Part shown: in pieces, positions 49,758-60,120 of the stretch
Position numbering within the stretch: the stretch's first letter is position 1
Layout of the letters: the number at the start of each line of letters is the position of its first letter
From: Paludisphaera mucosa
GTDB taxonomy: Bacteria; Planctomycetota; Planctomycetia; Isosphaerales; Isosphaeraceae
Assembly (NCBI RefSeq): GCF_029589435.1
Contig: NZ_JARRAG010000002.1
Coordinates: 3,968,001 to 4,032,000 of the forward strand
Length of the DNA stretch: 64,000 nt
Direction: 5' to 3'
Program-made: the position numbers and the translations under genes
The notes under the pieces: model-generated
What the model was told of the DNA's origin: nothing
What the model saw: the letters and a program-made list of their open reading frames with translations, nothing else
Databases searched by the model: none

Positions 49758-49769
49758 GAGGCCGTGGCG

Positions 49770-50180
49770 ATGCTGATCGATCTGAGCGAGTCGGACGGCC
49801 GGCCGATTTACGGGCGGATCGCCGACAGGATCAAGTTCGCGATCGCGGGCGAGGTCTTGCGTCCTGGGGAGCTGGCCCCGTCGGTGCGCGAGCTGTCGAA
49901 GCAGTTGGTGGTGAACCCCAACACCGTCGCGCGGGCGTATCGCGACCTTCAGAGCGAGGGGCTGCTGGAGCCGGTGCGGGGGACGGGGCTGCAGGTCGCC
50001 ACGGGCGCGACCGAGCGGTGCCGGCTGGCGCGGGTGGAGTTCGTCCGCGGCCGGCTCCGCGCGGCGATCGAGGAGGCGCGGGAGACCGGCCTCGCGGCGG
50101 ACGACATCGGCGCGATCCTCCGCGAGGAGTGGTCGCGGGGCGAGGGGACGGGCGACCGGACGAACGGGAGGGGCGCGTGA
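49770..50180 (+). CDS. GntR-family (YtrA subfamily) transcriptional regulator
   Basis: 136 residues: winged helix-turn-helix only, with PIYGRIADRIKFAIAGEVLRPGELAPSVRELSKQLVVNPNTVARAYRDLQSEGLL at about 12-66. A short helical dimer segment follows and there is no large effector domain, as in YtrA. Such regulators usually control a neighbouring ABC transporter, and the ATPase gene overlaps its stop here. GGAGG lies 8 bases before the ATG; a GTG 6 bases upstream is too close to it. Its own promoter contains a candidate operator, so autorepression is likely (inference). Confidence 0.92.
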   Translation: MLIDLSESDGRPIYGRIADRIKFAIAGEVLRPGELAPSVRELSKQLVVNPNTVARAYRDLQSEGLLEPVRGTGLQVATGATERCRLARVEFVRGRLRAAIEEARETGLAADDIGAILREEWSRGEGTGDRTNGRGA

Positions 50181-51145
50181 TGGACGGCGAATCGAACGTC
50201 GCGATCTCGATCGAGAACGTGAGCAAATCCTACCGCGACCAGGTCGCGCTCGACGGGCTCACCCTGCGGGTGCCCGAGGGCGCGGTGTTCGGCCTGCTCG
50301 GCGAGAACGGCGCGGGCAAGACGACGACGATCCAGGTGCTGCTGGGCATGATCCGGGCCGACTCGGGCCGGGCGCGGGTGCTGGGCGTCGACCCGGCCCG
50401 CGACGGCCTGGATGTCCGCCGCCGCGTGGGCTACGTGCCCGAGGTCCCGGCGCTTTACGACTGGATGACGGTGGCCGAGATCGGCTGGTTCGCCGCCGGC
50501 TTCCACCCCGAGCCGGTCGTCGGCGCCGCCGGCTTCCTCTCGCGCTACGGCGAGTCGACCAAGGGCTTCGGCCTGCCGCCCGACCGCAAGATCAAGGCGC
50601 TCTCCAAGGGGATGCGGGCCAAGGTCTCGCTCTCGCTGGCGCTGGCCTCGAATCCGTCGCTGTTGATCCTCGACGAGCCGACGTCGGGCCTCGACGCGCT
50701 GGTCCGGCGCGAGTTCCTCGAGAGCATGGTCGACCTGGCGGCGAACGGCCGGACGGTCTTCCTGTCGAGCCACCAGCTCGGCGAGGTCGAGCGTGTGGCG
50801 AGCCACGTCGCGCTCCTGCACCAGGGGAAGCTGATCCTGGCCGAGCCGCTCGACGAGCTGCGGGCGCGGACGTTCCTGCTGGCGGTGAACTTCCACAGCC
50901 GCGACCACGAGCCGGCTCCGCCGGCCTCCCTGCCGATCGAGCTGATCGACGCGTCCGACGCCCCGCGCCAGGCCCACTGGCTGGTCCGCGCCCGCGACCG
51001 CGCGGCGTGCGAGGCGGTCCGCAACCTGCCGGGCGTCGAATCGCTCCGGATCGAGACGCCCAGCCTGGAAGACGTCTACATCGGCTACATGCGAGGCCGA
51101 CGGCCGTCGCCCCCGCCGTCGCCCAGCACGGCCCACGTCGCCTGA
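50180..51145 (+). CDS. ABC transporter ATP-binding protein
   Basis: 321 residues. Walker A GENGAGKTT (about 43-51), Q-loop region near YVPEVPAL, signature LSKGMRAK (about 143), Walker B LLILDEPTSGLD and H-loop SSHQ. The C-terminal 100 residues form the regulatory extension common in ABC-2-type exporters. It starts inside the GntR stop (TGATG overlap), so expression is coupled. It pairs with the permease 38 bases downstream. The transported substrate is unknown. Confidence 0.95.
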   Translation: MDGESNVAISIENVSKSYRDQVALDGLTLRVPEGAVFGLLGENGAGKTTTIQVLLGMIRADSGRARVLGVDPARDGLDVRRRVGYVPEVPALYDWMTVAEIGWFAAGFHPEPVVGAAGFLSRYGESTKGFGLPPDRKIKALSKGMRAKVSLSLALASNPSLLILDEPTSGLDALVRREFLESMVDLAANGRTVFLSSHQLGEVERVASHVALLHQGKLILAEPLDELRARTFLLAVNFHSRDHEPAPPASLPIELIDASDAPRQAHWLVRARDRAACEAVRNLPGVESLRIETPSLEDVYIGYMRGRRPSPPPSPSTAHVA

Positions 51146-51183
51146 ACCGCTTCTCGATCCATCGATACCAGAAGGAGGATGCC

Positions 51184-53880
51184 ATGTTCGCGCGACTGTG
51201 GTGGAAGGAAGCGCGGCAGGTCTGGCCGGTGTGGGCGTTCCTGGCCGTACTGGGCCTGTCGGGGCAGGCGAAAATCCGTTGGTTCTTCGGCCCGGGCGGC
51301 GAGCCGCTCGCCGGCACGGCCATGCTCGTGACGGTCGTCTACCTGTTCCTGATCGCGGCGTCGGCGTTCGCCGGCGAGCGCGAGAACCGCACGCTCACGA
51401 TGCTCGACGCCCTCCCCGTGGAGCGTTGGCGGCTCTGGCTCGCCAAGTCGACGTTCGCCCTGGCGACGACCCTCGGGCTGGGATTGATCCTGCTCGTCGG
51501 CACCCTGTCGATGGGGGACATGGGCTTCGGGGCGATCGCGCGAGGTCTCGCCCGCGGCGGCCCGTGGCTGCTGAGCGCGCTGGGCTGGGGGCTGCTCTGG
51601 TCGACGGTCCTGGGCAACGCCCTGTTCGCCGCGGTCCTGGCGATCGTCTCCATGTGGCCGACGCTCGCGATCTTGAACGTGAGCGACGTCGGCGATTCCG
51701 GCGTCGCCACGCAGTTCGGCCGGGCCGACGCGTGGCACCTGCTGCTCGCCCTGGCGACGACGGCGGCCTCGGCCCTGATCTTCCACCTGAGCGGCCCGCC
51801 CGCATGGTCGCCGATCCGGCGTACGACGCCGCGACGGCCCGCTCCCGCCGTCACTTCCGAGCCCGTCGTCGCGACGACGACGCGCGAGCCCCGAGTCTGG
51901 CCCTCCGCGACGTGGCGGCTCGCCTGGCAGACGCTGCGGGAGGTGCGGTCCGCCGCGTGGATCCTGCTGGCGATCGGCGCGATTGCTCCCTTGCTGATCA
52001 CCATGGGAAGTCTGACCGGGGGCGGGTCGGAGATCTGGAACGTCTCGTCGGTGGTGGTCGCATTCCTCACGGGCGTGAGCGCGTTCAACGCCGAGAGCCG
52101 CGGGCGGATGCAACGATTCCTACTCCAGCACGGGGCGCGGCCGGGGGTGGTCTGGGTCGTCAAGGCGGCCCTCTGGCTGGCGGTCGCGACGCCGTTCGCC
52201 TGGTTCGCAAGCTGGGTCGTCCAGCATGACCGGTCGCCCACGTCGCGAGGTTTCGGCGAGGTGGATCTGACGACCCTGGTCGGGATCAACGCGCTCACCG
52301 CGTTCGCGACGGCGGCCCTCTGCGGGATGGTCTTCCGACGCGGGATCACGGCCGCGGCCCTGGCCTTCGTGATCTGGCTCCTGATGGCGATCCCCGGCGG
52401 GGCCCTGACGGCCGCGGGCCTGGTCGACGCGTCCCAACTGTTCTGGGTGCCGGTCGCCCTGCTCGCGATCGGCTGGGCCTGGAGCGGGCCTTGGATGTAC
52501 GACCGCCCCGGCGCGCGGAAGTGGGTGACGCTCGGCCTCATGGCGGTCGCGACGACGGCGGGCCTCGGCGGCGCCTACCTCGCGAGCCGCGCCTGGAGCC
52601 TGCCGGCCCTCGAACCGGCCGAGGCCGAACGGATCTTCCAATACTCGCGCGTGGCCGCCAGTTCGGTCCCTGCCGAAGAGAACGCCGCCGAGATGTATCG
52701 CAAGGCGTGGGAGGGGCGGAGAGAAGACGGTGGTGACCTGGCCCTGGTCCGAAAGGCGACGGAGCTGCCGTCGTGGCGGTGGGGGGAACTCTCCCGGGCC
52801 ACGATCTTCACCGACCCGGGGATGTCCCTCATGTGGACCGCCCTCTCGCGATCGGCGCTCCTCAAGGCGAGCCGCGACGCCAGGATCGAGCGGGGCGACC
52901 TGCCGGCCGCCTGGAGCGACATCCTGGCGACGTTCCGCCTGGCGCGGCAGATCTCGGGCTTCGCGGAGGGGATCGAGGCGTTCGAGGGCGTCCGGGCCGA
53001 GGCCGACGCGATCGGCCAGGCGATGGAGTGGGCGGTGGACGCCAGGCAGACGGCCGCGTCGCTCGAAGCCGCCCGCAAGGCGTACCGGGCCCTGCCGCCG
53101 ATGCCCCGGGCGGCCGACGCCGCCCGAGCCCAGGCCCTGATCCTCCGCAACACGCTCGACATGCCTCGCGACGAGTTGATCGACGCGGCGAGTCGGCATT
53201 TCCTCGACGCCAACTCCCAGCCCTCCCAGCATTTCCTCGTCCGGGTCATGACGACTCCCTGGGAAGTGGCGCGCACGCGGCGAGGGGCCCAGCTCCTCCT
53301 CGCCGCGATGGTCCAGGATGCGGAGCAGCCCGCCTATCTGGTGCACGGCGGCCTGAACGGGCTGGAAATCCGCCAGAACGGGGAGAGGGTGGTGATCCCG
53401 CCGGCGGAACTGTTTTCGATCGAGATCAGGAACCCGGTCCTCAACACCGTGACGACGCACCTTGGCGCCTTCATCCTGGAATGGAACCGTTGCGAGGCCG
53501 CCCGCCGGGCCCTCGACCTGATCTTCCGCCTGCGGATCTGGCAGGCCGGGCACGACGGCCGATTGCCGGACACGCTCAACGCCCTCGTGAGCCCGGAAGA
53601 TCCGGCCTTGCCGATCGACCCGTTCTCGCCCACCGGCGCGACCTTCGGTTACATCCCCGACCATGGCCGCTGGAGGCGCTCCGGCATGTACGGCTCGACC
53701 CTCACGAGCAACCACGAAAGCGACACGCCCTCGTTTGAGGGCGAATGGCTGCTCTACAGCGTCGGTCCCAAACAGTTAGACATCCGACAGCAGAGCTACA
53801 TCCCAACCTCGGTCGACGCCAACGACCTCATATTCCCCTTGAAGGACCACGTCAAACCGCCCGATCCCGCCACTCCGTGA
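51184..53880 (+). CDS. Very large ABC-2 type permease with C-terminal soluble domain
   Basis: 898 residues. The first half (about 1-470) has about twelve hydrophobic helices, beginning MFARLWWKEARQVWPVWAFL, in two ABC-2-like blocks divided by a Pro-rich linker (about 215-240). From about 475 the protein is soluble: helical segments follow (VPAEENAAEMYRKAWEGR) and a tail with GRLPDTLNALVSPEDPALPIDPFSP and GEWLLYSVGPKQLD. Such a tail resembles the C-terminal part of planctomycete pseudopilin-like proteins (recalled). Ordinary ABC-2 permeases are about 250-550 residues, so this is a fusion. AGGAGG lies before the ATG. The tail may be outside and sense or bind cargo (inference). Confidence 0.8.
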   Translation: MFARLWWKEARQVWPVWAFLAVLGLSGQAKIRWFFGPGGEPLAGTAMLVTVVYLFLIAASAFAGERENRTLTMLDALPVERWRLWLAKSTFALATTLGLGLILLVGTLSMGDMGFGAIARGLARGGPWLLSALGWGLLWSTVLGNALFAAVLAIVSMWPTLAILNVSDVGDSGVATQFGRADAWHLLLALATTAASALIFHLSGPPAWSPIRRTTPRRPAPAVTSEPVVATTTREPRVWPSATWRLAWQTLREVRSAAWILLAIGAIAPLLITMGSLTGGGSEIWNVSSVVVAFLTGVSAFNAESRGRMQRFLLQHGARPGVVWVVKAALWLAVATPFAWFASWVVQHDRSPTSRGFGEVDLTTLVGINALTAFATAALCGMVFRRGITAAALAFVIWLLMAIPGGALTAAGLVDASQLFWVPVALLAIGWAWSGPWMYDRPGARKWVTLGLMAVATTAGLGGAYLASRAWSLPALEPAEAERIFQYSRVAASSVPAEENAAEMYRKAWEGRREDGGDLALVRKATELPSWRWGELSRATIFTDPGMSLMWTALSRSALLKASRDARIERGDLPAAWSDILATFRLARQISGFAEGIEAFEGVRAEADAIGQAMEWAVDARQTAASLEAARKAYRALPPMPRAADAARAQALILRNTLDMPRDELIDAASRHFLDANSQPSQHFLVRVMTTPWEVARTRRGAQLLLAAMVQDAEQPAYLVHGGLNGLEIRQNGERVVIPPAELFSIEIRNPVLNTVTTHLGAFILEWNRCEAARRALDLIFRLRIWQAGHDGRLPDTLNALVSPEDPALPIDPFSPTGATFGYIPDHGRWRRSGMYGSTLTSNHESDTPSFEGEWLLYSVGPKQLDIRQQSYIPTSVDANDLIFPLKDHVKPPDPATP

Positions 53881-54141: not shown

Positions 54142-54813
54142 ATGCACCGGCTGCCATGGGGAAGGGGCGTCCTGCAAGCGGCGACGGGTCGGGGCCCGGG
54201 GGCGTTCGGGTTCGCCTGCCTGGCGGCGGGGCTCATCCTGGGCCCCTGCTACCTGACCGCGACGTTGGAACCCGAGAGGACGGATCAGGCCTCGTCGGTC
54301 GATCCCAGCGGAGGTCGGTCGATCCTCCGGGCGGAGTTGCTCGAATGCTGGGCGTCCGAGGAGTGCGACGGACTCGCCCGGGCCGTCGAGGAGACCCCGG
54401 GGCCGCCGACGGTGGAGATGGTGCGCCGGCTGATGGAAGACCACGGCTGCACGGGGCTCCGTTACGTCCTGCGCGTCCGATGGCTGCTGAGCGACGGCGG
54501 CTTCGACGAGATCACCTACGTCCGTCGGCCGTATCAGGAGCCGTGGTGTTTCCAAGAGTTCCTCAAATTCCTGCGCCAGAGGATCGAGACGGCGAAGGGC
54601 AGCCACGGCGACGTCCCTCTCCGCGTCGTCGACCTGGCGTCCATCCCGGAGGACCACGCCTCGGACTCGATCCTGGAACGGCTGCTGACTCCGACCGCGA
54701 AGGATGAGCCGGCCCGTCGTCTTCCGGGCGACGGCGAGTCGGCCCCCGTCGTCGGCGCCGGCCGGTTCAAGCCGGTGCCGGCGCCGCGCCGGCCGTCGCC
54801 GGCCAACCATTGA
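54142..54813 (+). CDS. Triplicated single-pass membrane protein, copy 1
   Basis: 223 residues. A short basic N-terminus, one membrane helix (about 20-40, GAFGFACLAAGLILGP), then an outer or soluble domain (about 55-185) with LRAELLECWASEECDGLA, RRLMEDHGCTGLRYVLRVRWLL and EITYVRRPYQEP-CFQEFLKFLR. It ends in a Pro-rich tail. Two further genes downstream share this plan. AGGAGGGG lies 6 bases before the ATG. A weak promoter may lie at 53994-54024. No known family. Confidence 0.7.
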   Translation: MHRLPWGRGVLQAATGRGPGAFGFACLAAGLILGPCYLTATLEPERTDQASSVDPSGGRSILRAELLECWASEECDGLARAVEETPGPPTVEMVRRLMEDHGCTGLRYVLRVRWLLSDGGFDEITYVRRPYQEPWCFQEFLKFLRQRIETAKGSHGDVPLRVVDLASIPEDHASDSILERLLTPTAKDEPARRLPGDGESAPVVGAGRFKPVPAPRRPSPANH

Positions 54814-54838
54814 CATTTGTAGGATAACGGCGATAGTA
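54810..54838 (+). promoter_or_regulatory. Promoter for membrane paralog 2
   Basis: TTGACA (54810-54815), 17 bases, ATAGTA (54833-54838). The -35 overlaps the stop of copy 1, so copy 2 has its own promoter. Start predicted near 54845. Confidence 0.65.
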
Positions 54839-54923
54839 GAACGACGGCCGTCTCTTACAAGTGTCCCTTTGATATCCTCTCTCGTCGTCTCGTCCCCGTG
54901 GAACTCCGCGTAAGGGGGTTGTC

Positions 54924-55481
54924 ATGAGTCGGAGCGGCAGGGTTCGACTAATCTTCGGCGTCCTCGGCCGCCGGTTGGGTGCGGCCGGTTTCGCTTGCCT
55001 GACGGCGTCGCTGCTGCTGGCGCCGTCCTTAGTCACCTCGAAATGGCAACCCGGCGCGATGGGTGAAGGAGGTCGGGAGCCGACGTCCGACAGCCGCTCC
55101 GTCGTCGGGGTGGAGGTCGTGGACGCCCGGTGCTCGGACGACTTCGGGGACCTGGCGGCGTTCGTCGCCGGCTGCCCGACGCCGCCGACCTGGGATGCCG
55201 TGCGGAGCCTCCTCGAAGCCCGCGCCGCGCGGGACGTCTGGTTTTCCTACCGGCTCCGCTGGCGGTTGGACGACGGCCAACCCGCGGAGGTGACCTACGT
55301 CCGCCAGCCTTATCACAGCAACCCTCACTTCCAGGAGTTCCTGCAGCTGGTGCGAAGCGACGTGGGACGTGGGCCGGCCGACGACGCGTCGCCGCTCCCG
55401 CCCCCGGGCCTCGAACTCCAGCCTCCCCTCCTGGACGTCGTCCGGGAGCACCTCGCGAAGGACCAGACGCGGCCGGAATGA
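54924..55481 (+). CDS. Triplicated single-pass membrane protein, copy 2
   Basis: 185 residues. The same layout as copy 1: membrane helix at about 18-37 (AAGFACLTASLLLAPS), then VEVVDARCSDDFGDLAAFVAG, RSLLEARAARDVWFSYRLRWRL and EVTYVRQPYHSNPHFQEFLQLVR. The shared blocks FACL..., DD-or-EC-LA, RWRL/RWLL and TYVRxPY show common descent. AAGGGGG precedes the ATG. Function unknown; the Arg-Tyr motif block may be a binding surface. Confidence 0.72.
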   Translation: MSRSGRVRLIFGVLGRRLGAAGFACLTASLLLAPSLVTSKWQPGAMGEGGREPTSDSRSVVGVEVVDARCSDDFGDLAAFVAGCPTPPTWDAVRSLLEARAARDVWFSYRLRWRLDDGQPAEVTYVRQPYHSNPHFQEFLQLVRSDVGRGPADDASPLPPPGLELQPPLLDVVREHLAKDQTRPE

Positions 55482-55543
55482 CCGAGGCCCCGCCTCGAAC
55501 CTCGGCTCGCCGCGAGGCGTTCGTCTCGATTCCGTTTTCATCC

Positions 55544-55572
55544 TTGACATGGCTCGGAGTCGGTGGATATAA
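55544..55572 (+). promoter_or_regulatory. Promoter for membrane paralog 3
   Basis: TTGACA (55544-55549), 17 bases, ATATAA (55567-55572): a near-consensus pair with the same spacing as the promoter of copy 2. Predicted start about 55579, leaving a 5' leader of about 195 bases that contains the palindrome at 55586. Confidence 0.75.
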
Positions 55573-55585
55573 GGGCGGACAGAGA

Positions 55586-55604
55586 CCAAGACAATTTGTC
55601 TTGG
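55586..55604 (+). promoter_or_regulatory. Perfect palindrome downstream of the paralog 3 promoter
   Basis: CCAAGACAATTTGTCTTGG: two 9-base arms, exact inverted repeats, around one central T. It begins 14 bases after the -10 box, at about +7. Its A/T-rich centre and position suit a repressor operator. It could also form a short RNA hairpin, but a one-base loop makes that unlikely. Confidence 0.7.
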
Positions 55605-55774
55605 GAATAACCGTCGCCCCGAAACGAAGACCATCGTAGAGGTCCGCGCCGGCCTCCGGCGTCGGCCGATGGGAGAAGGAACGCCCCGGGGCTTCGGGTT
55701 GCGAGACGAGCTCGCTGCGCGTCGTCGCCTTCCATCGACCGTTCGAATCGCGGCATATCCGCGCGGGGGCCCCT

Positions 55775-56341
55775 ATGCGCCGAGACGGGATGATCCGCTT
55801 CATGTCCGACCTTTTGCGGCGTTGGCTGGCGTCCTCCGGCTTCGCCTGCCTGTCGGCCTGCCTTGTCCTGGCCCCGATCTTCCTGGCCTGGCAGTGGCGT
55901 TCGGGGACGATCGGGGCGGCTTTCCAGGAGCCCGCGGCCTCGGCCCGCACCGCCGTCGGGGCGGAAGTCCTGGAAACGCGGTCGTCCGACGATCTCCCGG
56001 ACGTAGCCCGCATCGTCGCGAGCCCGGCCGAGCCGCCGAGCTGGGAATCCGTGCGTCGCCTGCTGGAGGCTCGGGGGGCGACGAACCTCTGGTACTGCGT
56101 CCGGGTCCAGTGGCGGATGGACGACGGCGCGATCGAGGAAACGACCTTCGTCCGACATCCGTATCACGACGTGGCCCATTTCCGCGAGTTCCTGAGGCTC
56201 GTGCGCGAGGTCGACCCGGAAGCCGGCCCGGGGTGGTCGGCGTCGCTGGGAAAGGTCCGGAACCCGGGCGCCGAGAATCAGGATCCCTTGCCCGACGTCC
56301 TCCTCGCGTACTTGCGGAAGGTCCGCCCCTGGGAGCGTTGA
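55775..56341 (+). CDS. Triplicated single-pass membrane protein, copy 3
   Basis: 188 residues, closest to copy 2. Membrane helix about 18-38 (SSGFACLSACLVLAPI); then AEVLETRSSDDLPDVARIVAS, RRLLEARGATNLWYCVRVQWRM and ETTFVRHPYHDVAHFREFLRLVR. With the start at 55775 the FACL block falls at exactly the same residue number as in copy 2. Other ATGs at 55790 and 55802 are possible. It ends 12 bases from the convergent lipase gene. Function unknown. Confidence 0.72.
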   Translation: MRRDGMIRFMSDLLRRWLASSGFACLSACLVLAPIFLAWQWRSGTIGAAFQEPAASARTAVGAEVLETRSSDDLPDVARIVASPAEPPSWESVRRLLEARGATNLWYCVRVQWRMDDGAIEETTFVRHPYHDVAHFREFLRLVREVDPEAGPGWSASLGKVRNPGAENQDPLPDVLLAYLRKVRPWER

Positions 56342-56353
56342 GCGGCCGGGCGG

Positions 56354-58057
56354 TCAGCGCGAGACGGTCGCGGCGTGACGTTTCAGGATGCGCTCGACCT
56401 CGACGAAGGTGTACTCGCTGGAGTTGATCGTCGTGTGATACTCGGGCACGAGGGTCTCGCTCTCGGCGCCCTCCTGGCGGGCGCTGGCGATCGGCACGGC
56501 GCCGTCGCCGTGGGCGATCGCGACGGGGACGCGGGCGGTGCCGGCGATCGTGTGATGCCGGATTCGGGGGTCGATCGGCAGGCACCGCATCACCTGGTGG
56601 ATCGGCTCGCGGCGTCGGAGCATGCCGATGCTGTTGGGCAGGTCGTGCATGTAGGGCCGCACCGCGCCCGGGTTGTCGCGGTCGAGCCGCGCGGCGAGGT
56701 CGCGAAGGTCCTCGGGACGCCGCGTGAGGCGCTCGTTGAGGACGCCGATCGGCTGCGTCGTCGCCCCCAGGCCGTCGTGAGGGGTCGCCAGGAAGAGGGC
56801 CCGTCGGACGATCGGGACCGGTTCGAAGAAGAAGAGGCTCGCCAGAAACGCCCGCTCCGGCTCCGTCGCCGCCAGCGTCTCCAGGGGCCGGGTCGCGACC
56901 AGCTCCCAGAGCGCCGGGCCGCTGGAGACGACCTGCAGCTTGAGCATCAGGCCGCCCATGCTGTGGCCGATCAGCACGGTGTTCTGGACGCCGGGATCGG
57001 TGCGTGCAGGGTCGAGCGCGGCCTCGAAACGGTGTAGGTCGCGGCGGAACAGGGCCGCCGAATGCAGGAAGGTCAGGCCGGTCGCGTAGCGGTAGCCGGC
57101 GATCTGGAAGCGATCCAGAAAACCCGGCCGCGACCGCAGGCCGTTCATCATGTCGGTGAAGGTGTACGGCGTGTCGTACAGGCCGTGGACGAAGACGACG
57201 GGGATCTTGCCCGGCTGGAAGGGCTCCAGCAGTCCGAGGAACGCCCGATCGACGTCCTGGCTGGGGTTCACCAGCCCGGCCCAGCCCGACTGGAGCCCCC
57301 CCGTGCCCTCTTCCAGGTAAGCGATCGGGGCGTCGAGATCCGCCGCCAGCGGCCGGCGCGCGCCGGCGAGTGCGACGCCGCCGACCCGCAGCGGGTCATA
57401 GAACTCCAGCACGTCGCCAGGCCCCCCGCCGCCCCCCAGCCAGGCGTCCAGGTCGGGTCGGAGCACGGCCGTCGCGGGGATGAACATGGGATCGGGGATG
57501 ACCGCGTCGTCGACCGTCGCATGCGGATTCGGCCGGACGAGGACCTGAGAGGCCCCGACGCCCGAACGGGTGTGATCCCGCGTATTCGAGGGGTTCCGGG
57601 GCGCGGCGGCGGGGTCGAGCAGGCGGGTGAATTCCGCCGGCGACCACACGAACCCCTGGTGGACGATCGGCACCTGAATGACGCCGCGCGGGGTCTGGAC
57701 GACCAGTCGCGACCGTACGTCGATCGCCCCGTGCCGCGTCGCCGCCCGCAGGCAGTCGGCGAGGTTCTCGTTGTAAAGCGCGAGCGCCTTGCGGGCGCGC
57801 TTGTCGTCGAGGGCCGGACAGGCCGCCATCGCGGCGTAGGCGAAGACGGCCCCCTCGTAATAGCGATCGATGCACTCGCGCGAGCCGCCGTGCTCGACGA
57901 GGATCGCCCGCCTCCGCGCCGAGGCCGCCCGCTGCAGCGCCGCGTCGCGATCCAGGCCGGCCGCCCGGACCATCCCAGGGGCCGCCATCGTCATCGCCGC
58001 GCCGCAGAGGAAGCTCCGGCGCGCACACGGAACGCCGGCTCGCCGAGTATCTTGCAT
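56354..58057 (-). CDS. Tat-exported alpha/beta hydrolase (lipase/esterase-like)
   Basis: 567 residues. The N-terminus has a twin-arginine signal (ARRSFLCGAAMTMAAPGM, about 13-30). The hydrolase core follows, with VVFVHGLYDTPYTFT (oxyanion loop) near 300 and the nucleophile elbow GHSMGG near 375. Catalytic His and Asp lie later, probably HGDGAVP and EYHTTINS near the end. It likely works outside the cytoplasmic membrane on esters or lipids; substrate unknown. The Met at 58057 has GCGAGGGG upstream; an in-frame ATG 27 bases earlier is less favoured. Divergence from htpG is tandem, 143 bases apart. Confidence 0.85.
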   Translation of the reverse strand: MQDTRRAGVPCARRSFLCGAAMTMAAPGMVRAAGLDRDAALQRAASARRRAILVEHGGSRECIDRYYEGAVFAYAAMAACPALDDKRARKALALYNENLADCLRAATRHGAIDVRSRLVVQTPRGVIQVPIVHQGFVWSPAEFTRLLDPAAAPRNPSNTRDHTRSGVGASQVLVRPNPHATVDDAVIPDPMFIPATAVLRPDLDAWLGGGGGPGDVLEFYDPLRVGGVALAGARRPLAADLDAPIAYLEEGTGGLQSGWAGLVNPSQDVDRAFLGLLEPFQPGKIPVVFVHGLYDTPYTFTDMMNGLRSRPGFLDRFQIAGYRYATGLTFLHSAALFRRDLHRFEAALDPARTDPGVQNTVLIGHSMGGLMLKLQVVSSGPALWELVATRPLETLAATEPERAFLASLFFFEPVPIVRRALFLATPHDGLGATTQPIGVLNERLTRRPEDLRDLAARLDRDNPGAVRPYMHDLPNSIGMLRRREPIHQVMRCLPIDPRIRHHTIAGTARVPVAIAHGDGAVPIASARQEGAESETLVPEYHTTINSSEYTFVEVERILKRHAATVSR

Positions 58058-58200
58058 GAACCCCTCGCCGGACAATCCATCCACGCGCCGCGCCGGACGG
58101 CGCCCAATCCTATGCCCATCGGATCGGCCGTCCGGGTCGTGCGGCTTTCACCGAATCTCCCGAGGGCTGCGATTTCCGCCCGTCCGGTCGCGGCCGCTCG

Positions 58201-60120
58201 TCACATTACGATGAGCGGCGAGCGCTTGTCGGCGGCCTCGTCCATGAACCCCTGGATCCGGGCGACCAGTTCCTGGGCGTCGGGGGCGACGCCTTCGAGG
58301 AGCAGGGTGTTGGACCAGAGTTGCAGGCCGCATTGCTTGATGAAGGCGTCGTGCTCGGCGTTGGCGGTCAGGCGGCCGAGACGGCGGATCAGGGGGGCCT
58401 TGGGGTTGATCTCCAGGATCCGCGACATCTCCGGCATCTCCTTGTTGGCCATCTTGAGGATGCGCTGCATCTGCGTGGACAGCGCCCCGTCGGCGTTGAC
58501 CAGGCAGCAGGGGCTGTCGGTCAGGCGATGCGACTCGCGGACGTCGCGGACGCGGCCGCCGATCGCCTCGCGAAAAAGGTCGAGCACGCGGGCGAAGCCG
58601 GGTTCGGCCTTTTCGTCCTCGGGCGTCTCGACCTTCGACTCGGCGTCGCCGGGAGCGTCGGGGAGGTCGAGGTCGTCGGAGTCGATCGAGGTCAGGGGCT
58701 TGCCGCCGTACGAGCCGAGGGCGTTCATGACGAACTCGTCGATCGGCTCGACCAGGTAGAGGACCTCGAGCTTGCGCTTGCGGAAGACCTCCAGGTTGGG
58801 GTTCTTCTCGATCGCGGCGAGGTCGGGGCCGCCCAGGAAGTAGATCCGCTTCTGGCCCTCGGGCATCCGCCCGACGTAGTCGTCGAGCGCGACGTCGAGC
58901 TTGCCGTCGGCCTTGTGGGACGAGGCGAACCGGATCAGCTTCGCCAGCCGGTCGCGCTGGGGGGCGTCGACGATCGCGCCCTCCTTGAGCAGCGTCCCGA
59001 ACTGGTCGGTGAAGGTCTGGAAGGCGTCGGGCTGATCCTTGGCGAGCTGATCGAGGCGGTCGAAGATCGACTTGAGCAGCGACCCCCGGATCCGCCGGAT
59101 GACCGAGTTGTCCTGGAGGGTCTCGCGCGAGACGTTGAGCGGCAAATCCTCGGAGTCGACCAGGCCGAAGAGGAACCGGAGGTAGTCCGGCAGCAGCTCG
59201 CGGCAGTCGTTCTGCACCAGGACGCGCTTGGCGCAAAGGCTGACGCCGTGCTCCATCCGGGGGAAGCCGTACTTCTCCAGGTTCGACGGCGGGGAGTAGA
59301 GGACCGCGTGGAACTGGATCGGCGAATCGACCGAGACGTGCAGGTGCCAGAGCGGCTTCTCGTCGGTGTGGTGGCTCAGGTGCTGGTAGAATCGGTCGTA
59401 CTGCTCCTCGGTCACCTGCCGCTTGGGCTCGACCCAGATGGGCTTCTGGTCGTTGATCACCTCGTCCCCGGGCGCGAGCTTGATCGGGTGGGGGATGAAG
59501 CTGGAATAGCGCCGGACGATCTCCTTGATCCGGTAGGGGATGGCGAAGTCCTTCGCATCCTCCTTGAGATGGAGGATGATCTCGGTGCCCCGGGGCAGGG
59601 GGGCCTCGACGGCCTCGACGGTGAACCGGCCGGTCCCCTCGGACTCCCATTCCCAGCCGCGCTCGTCGCGGTAGCTGCGGGAGCGGACCTGGACCTTGTC
59701 GGCGATCATGAAGGCCGAGTAGAAGCCGACCCCGAACTGGCCGATCAGCGACAGGTCGGCCTTCGCCTTGGCCTCGGTCGACAGGTTTTTCAGGAACTCG
59801 CCCGAGCCGCTGTGCGCGATCGTCCCGAGGTTGGCCACCAGCTCCTCGCGTGTCATGCCGACGCCGGTGTCGCGGATGACCAGGCGTCGCGCGGCCTCGT
59901 CGGGCTCGATCGTGATTTCCAACGGCCCGCTGTCGCGCTGCGCACCATCGGTGAGCGCCACGAAGCGCATCTTGTCGAGCGCGTCGGACGCGTTGGAGAT
60001 CAGCTCGCGGAGGGCGATCTCGCGGCTCTGATACAACGAATGCGAGAGCAGGTGGAGGAGTTGTTTGATCTCCGCCTGGAAGGTGAATTCCTGCCGTTCC
60101 TGCGCATGTTCGGCTGTCAT
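58201..60120 (-). CDS. htpG: Chaperone HtpG (Hsp90 family)
   Basis: 639 residues, typical HtpG length. ATP-binding motifs: LRELISNASDALDKMRF, DTGVGMTREELVANLGTIAHSGS and IGQFGVGFYSAFMIADKV. The middle domain includes SEDLPLNVSRETLQ, and the C-terminal dimer domain lies after about 510. It is a cytoplasmic heat-shock chaperone using ATP. No CIRCE or sigma-32 box is obvious upstream in the 468-base space. Confidence 0.96.
   Translation of the reverse strand: MTAEHAQERQEFTFQAEIKQLLHLLSHSLYQSREIALRELISNASDALDKMRFVALTDGAQRDSGPLEITIEPDEAARRLVIRDTGVGMTREELVANLGTIAHSGSGEFLKNLSTEAKAKADLSLIGQFGVGFYSAFMIADKVQVRSRSYRDERGWEWESEGTGRFTVEAVEAPLPRGTEIILHLKEDAKDFAIPYRIKEIVRRYSSFIPHPIKLAPGDEVINDQKPIWVEPKRQVTEEQYDRFYQHLSHHTDEKPLWHLHVSVDSPIQFHAVLYSPPSNLEKYGFPRMEHGVSLCAKRVLVQNDCRELLPDYLRFLFGLVDSEDLPLNVSRETLQDNSVIRRIRGSLLKSIFDRLDQLAKDQPDAFQTFTDQFGTLLKEGAIVDAPQRDRLAKLIRFASSHKADGKLDVALDDYVGRMPEGQKRIYFLGGPDLAAIEKNPNLEVFRKRKLEVLYLVEPIDEFVMNALGSYGGKPLTSIDSDDLDLPDAPGDAESKVETPEDEKAEPGFARVLDLFREAIGGRVRDVRESHRLTDSPCCLVNADGALSTQMQRILKMANKEMPEMSRILEINPKAPLIRRLGRLTANAEHDAFIKQCGLQLWSNTLLLEGVAPDAQELVARIQGFMDEAADKRSPLIVM

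Follow-up and report, generated by a model that had tools for sequence, protein, structure and literature searches.

The window, a 64 kb stretch of a Paludisphaera genome (G000, 8.2 Mb), contains three tandem genes, W1, W2 and W3 (Table 1), whose codon use is of the coding type (GC3 0.85-0.88 versus GC2 0.53-0.54). An SD-like GGAGGGG lies 5' of the W1 ATG, and an internal ATG a few codons in offers a possible alternative start for W3. When W2 was searched by tblastn against the whole genome, it recovered W3 (E 2.8e-46, 46% identity) and W1 (E 2e-23, 36% identity) and, besides these and itself, zero matches at E<=10; a profile search likewise yielded no extra family copy, and the three genes are thus the sole copies detected in this genome. 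Their homology is significant and spans both the helix and the alpha/beta domain, with the shared blocks VRWLLSDGGFDEITYVRRPY / LRWRLDDGQPAEVTYVRQPY / VQWRMDDGAIEETTFVRHPY, and with a paralog core made up of the helix, then R..W..DG..E.TYVR.PY, and further on ...F.EF. The helix of all three includes FACL, which is not conserved among their relatives. The preliminary description had placed three genes here with these shared blocks and had read them as far-diverged but truly homologous membrane proteins with a single helix, and on all of these points the present analysis agrees.

Table 1. Coordinates of the three paralogs, the candidate regulatory sites between them and the bordering genes
Feature	Coordinates	Strand	Description	Basis
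GntR regulator	49764-50180		upstream of the ABC ATPase	Pfam match above cut-off
ABC ATPase	50153-51145		before the permease	Pfam match above cut-off
ABC-2 exporter permease	51181..53880	+	left slot border	Pfam ABC2_membrane E 1e-5, just below cut-off
W1	54142..54813	+	223 aa, predicted single-pass membrane paralog	intact ORF, homology to W2, tree
W2 promoter-like site	54810..54837	+	sigma-70 type	TTGACA-N16-GATAGT
W2	54924..55481	+	185 aa, predicted single-pass membrane paralog	intact ORF, homology
Hairpin and T-rich tail	55513..55538	+	W2-W3 gap, weakly terminator-like	not above chance
W3 promoter-like site	55544..55573	+	sigma-70 type	TTGACA-N18-TATAAG, also readable as N17-ATATAA
W3	55775..56341	+	188 aa, predicted single-pass membrane paralog	intact ORF, homology
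Alpha/beta hydrolase-like	56354..58084	-	right slot border	GHSMG motif; Pfam matches below cut-off
HtpG (Hsp90)	58201..60120	-	outer right slot border	Pfam HSP90 E 8e-107

Every family protein carries one hydrophobic segment whose N-side flank is, with 1 exception, more positive than the C-side flank, and the domain that follows is therefore predicted to lie outside the membrane. W1, W2 and W3 are accordingly predicted to be bitopic inner-membrane proteins: a short, positively charged N-terminus would remain inside, a single helix would cross the membrane, and an alpha/beta domain of ~90 residues would lie beyond it on the outside. A lipoprotein reading of FACL was dropped because its Cys sits early in the hydrophobic segment and is not conserved. 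The AlphaFold2 model comprises a helix at 6-38, a strand-helix-helix-strand-strand-helix arrangement (pLDDT near 85) and a final helix; the structure models rest on four sequences, the window and L023 proteins. With these models the best Foldseek E was 0.3, while the best VIA-align results were Z 2.9 (rmsd 5.2, 81 residues) for the domain alone and Z 3.7 (rmsd 2.4, 42 residues of the helix part) for the full model, so that full and domain-only searches with both programs stayed at background and gave no convincing likeness to a solved structure. Weak structural rows for PX, COMMD, PltB, the enolase N-domain and ThyX were not believed, no fold was assigned, and the modelled fold gives no clue to function. 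The conserved core, together with divergent C-terminal tails, suggests a common scaffold with copy-specific contacts.

Searches of Pfam and NCBIfam with single members and with all 19 produced chance-level matches only, none above the curated cut-off, and the family profile found no match among PDB sequences; a plasmid collection was also free of family matches. The family was found in 12 of 45 Isosphaeraceae genomes, and a sample drawn from across the phylum, with only ten candidates scored per genome, gave no member in its 293 other genomes. Judged by these searches, it appears to be an undescribed family that has so far been found only in Isosphaeraceae, in keeping with its earlier designation as unknown.

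Promoter-like sites of the sigma-70 type precede W2 and W3. The pattern TTGACA-N17-ATANNA, which had been reported before both copies, is present at both and has 5 occurrences in the whole genome, including these 2, against 0 for a reversed-pattern control; better -10 boxes than in the N17 form are GATAGT (N16) for W2 and TATAAG (N18) for W3. The W2 -35 box (54810-54815) includes the W1 stop codon TGA (54811-54813), which confirms the overlap described previously. On the plus strand of the window, TTGACA occurs at 2 sites only, 54810 and 55544, upstream of W2 and W3. By comparing the best sigma-70 score of each intergenic gap with dinucleotide shuffles of the same gap, we obtained 10/12 for the W2 gap (p 0.0055) and 11/12 for the W3 gap (matched by 0 of 2000 shuffles), and no unusual box in the W1 gap (best 8/12, p 0.51). 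Genome-wide, TTGACA-N16-19-TANNNT was found 60 times versus 2 in the reversed control (30-fold), and this promoter class therefore looks real in the organism. As a separate observation, the same counts make a canonical sigma-70 promoter consensus readable from a planctomycete genome.

The regions upstream of W2 and W3 share no alignable similarity, so the promoters were not visibly copied along with the genes, and a joint duplication of promoters and genes was rejected on this basis. Slot copies in relatives have no equally good TTGACA-type boxes upstream, and the independent promoters therefore look specific to this genome, not a trait of the family. The claim of independent promoters thus stands as far as separate candidate sites at W2 and W3 are concerned, but it does not extend to the slot copies of relatives. 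An intrinsic terminator between W2 and W3 was rejected, as 1 candidate was found versus 2.2 expected in shuffles.

The three genes occupy a slot between a GntR/ABC ATPase/ABC-2 permease operon on the left and, on the right, a convergent alpha/beta hydrolase gene followed by htpG. Across six Paludisphaera genomes, this slot holds 3 copies in the window's own genome, 2 in G001, 1 each in G003 and G004, 3 in G005 and 0 in G002, and the tandem copies in relatives that the preliminary description had suggested looking for are those of G001 and G005. An ortholog of the hydrolase (67-74%) is found at the slot in all five genomes with slot copies. In G002 (L080) the permease gene is followed by htpG, with neither a family gene nor the hydrolase, and this empty slot either marks the limits of the insertion or reflects a loss. 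Dispersed family copies exist beside the slot ones in G005, and G002 has dispersed copies too. One dispersed G005 copy (L029:1534-4334) lies after a same-strand gene whose product has a BlaR1-type M56 peptidase domain. Two observations concern the bordering genes themselves. The permease has a long C-terminal part (399 residues tested, 52681-53877), fused to the membrane part, that lacks any Pfam match and recurs in other Isosphaeraceae at about 30-40% identity. The alpha/beta hydrolase at the slot is a member of an expanded family, for which nine matches were counted in the window's genome.

A family tree, rooted at midpoint only, places W1 outside a clade of W2, W3, G3, G1a and G1b (99/99), and a constrained clade of W1, W2 and W3 was rejected (AU p 0.003). 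The array therefore consists of an older paralog and younger ones and is not the product of one triplication; the tandem triplication proposed earlier holds in the sense of three tandem paralogs and fails as a simple triplication event. Judging by this topology, W1 is an older paralog outside the W2/W3 lineage, while W2 and W3, whose grouping is weakly supported (83/79), may represent a lineage duplication. In the same tree, the slot lineage of Paludisphaera and a lineage linked to ECF sigma genes stand apart (99/98 and 98/99).

In six genomes spanning several genera (G002, G014, G028, G031, G035 and G059), a gene of the family and an ECF sigma gene (PF07638) are divergently oriented, and a kinase-WD40 gene follows the latter. 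Of 19 genomes, these six alone have an ortholog of this ECF (70-75% identical), and it always adjoins the family gene; all other ECFs in the 19 genomes are <=57% identical to the query. A motif, GTCYCG-N14-CGCGGTYYA, was identified visually in five upstream regions and is present with 0 mismatches before 7/7 genes of the ECF clade (the six ECF-linked genes and G14a), 5 of these matches being so by construction and those of G59 and G35 coming from regions not used to define it. The dispersed copy G14a carries the motif with no such ECF gene alongside, and the relatives G2a and G18 have neither ECF nor motif. On the ECF-gene side, the motif is exact in L034 and L078, one position differs in L026 and L033, and the ECF-side regions of L035 and L077 contain no clean motif. 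The intergenic motif of these six loci, seen on the ECF side in 4/6, is a candidate autoregulated ECF promoter. Of 24 matches across the six genomes, 9 fall at ECF-linked loci; the 15 elsewhere exceed the reversed control (9) by little, and the motif therefore looks largely local to the gene pair. Taken at the level of sequence, motif and co-location show an association of the ECF sigma with the family gene. The slot copies are without an ECF ortholog and without the motif (3-5 mismatches at best, and 4-5 for the window copies), and the window genes have neither an ECF nor a kinase neighbor. Overall, we regard the array as a cluster of lineage-specific paralogs within an orphan family, ordinary in kind, and the ECF link as the more useful lead.

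The explanation we favor, with a probability of about 0.5, is that the family comprises membrane-anchored, outward-facing envelope-response proteins that were ancestrally an ECF target and that moved to the Paludisphaera slot, diversified there and gained housekeeping-type promoters. We infer that the ECF-linked state is ancestral and that the ancestral gene was a direct target of the divergent ECF sigma, its product being a membrane-anchored effector that would be made when the sigma factor is active and would act on the outward side of the membrane. Serine/threonine kinases are one general way of ECF control (PMC8103513), which makes the neighboring kinase-WD40 protein the natural candidate for the input to this ECF sigma. 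In Paludisphaera, the family would have settled between the ABC exporter permease gene and htpG, where its copies would have multiplied by duplication and loss while ECF control was lost. In the window's genome, W2 and W3 would then have taken up separate housekeeping-type promoters, and their expression could thereby have become independent of W1.

The association with ECF genes could instead mean that the family proteins regulate the sigma factor, as membrane-anchored anti-sigma factors or signal-input partners, with the Paludisphaera copies as repurposed remnants. The divergent adjacency and exclusive co-occurrence in six genomes are compatible with such a role, as is a single-pass topology like that of many anti-sigma factors, but the conserved domain follows the helix, no cytoplasmic anti-sigma domain can be recognized and Pfam returns no anti-sigma match. 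Moreover, the gene is divergent and lies outside the ECF operon, the kinase encoded after the ECF is a likelier regulator, and the genomes with slot copies retain the family without the ECF ortholog. We regard this role as unlikely. A role tied to the slot itself, in which the copies act as accessory subunits of the GntR-regulated ABC-2 exporter or as substrates or partners of the alpha/beta hydrolase, draws on their constant position between those genes in five Paludisphaera genomes and on the hydrolase ortholog that these five likewise carry there. It appears distinctly improbable given that the ABC pair is found next to a slot without a family gene in G002 and in other genera, that family genes reside away from the ABC locus (G005 C1 and C5, G002, G014, G031), and that W2 and W3 have their own promoter-like sites while the hydrolase gene is convergent.

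The copies might also be orphan genes that drift for the most part neutrally and persist by chance in an intergenic slot that tolerates them, with promoter boxes that are incidental. Strong divergence (30-47% identity), high turnover in copy number and the empty G002 slot speak for such drift, yet the core R..W..DG..E.T.VR.PY...F.EF is kept across paralogs, the slot copies show coding-type GC3, the window copies are free of stops and 2 of the genome's 5 exact promoter boxes sit here, which makes neutrality very unlikely. A bolder reading, in which the family is the membrane-side signalling part of an ECF/kinase-WD40 switch of Isosphaeraceae not described before, and in which Paludisphaera released the family from that switch and diversified it into a variable set of outward-facing proteins under their own promoters, is speculative and, in our estimate, a long shot; were it true, a sigma-factor partner would have turned into an independent, expanding family.

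Few targets are known for the numerous ECF sigma factors and kinase-WD40 proteins of planctomycetes. A small membrane-protein gene that location, exclusive co-occurrence and a common promoter motif all link to one ECF presents a testable target, and the Paludisphaera paralogs may illustrate how such a gene exits a regulon and multiplies at one fixed location under new promoters.

Compared with ABC-2 exporter operons that have a GntR regulator, to which the Paludisphaera slot is directly downstream, the family differs in being absent from that position in G002 and in the other genera examined and in having separate promoter-like sites. Class I anti-sigma factors resemble it in being small single-pass proteins, with a gene beside an ECF in part of the family; in the present proteins, however, the domain follows the helix and is predicted outside, only a short stretch without conservation precedes the helix, no cytoplasmic anti-sigma domain is recognizable, the gene is divergent and not co-transcribed, and there is no Pfam match. 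A further comparison is with the ECF/serine-threonine kinase-WD40 loci of Planctomycetota (PF07638, PF00069, PF00400): relatives in six Isosphaeraceae genomes adjoin these loci divergently and have a promoter-like motif in common with them, but neither an ECF nor a kinase gene neighbors the three genes of the window, which also lack the motif, and the family protein has no described role in such loci.
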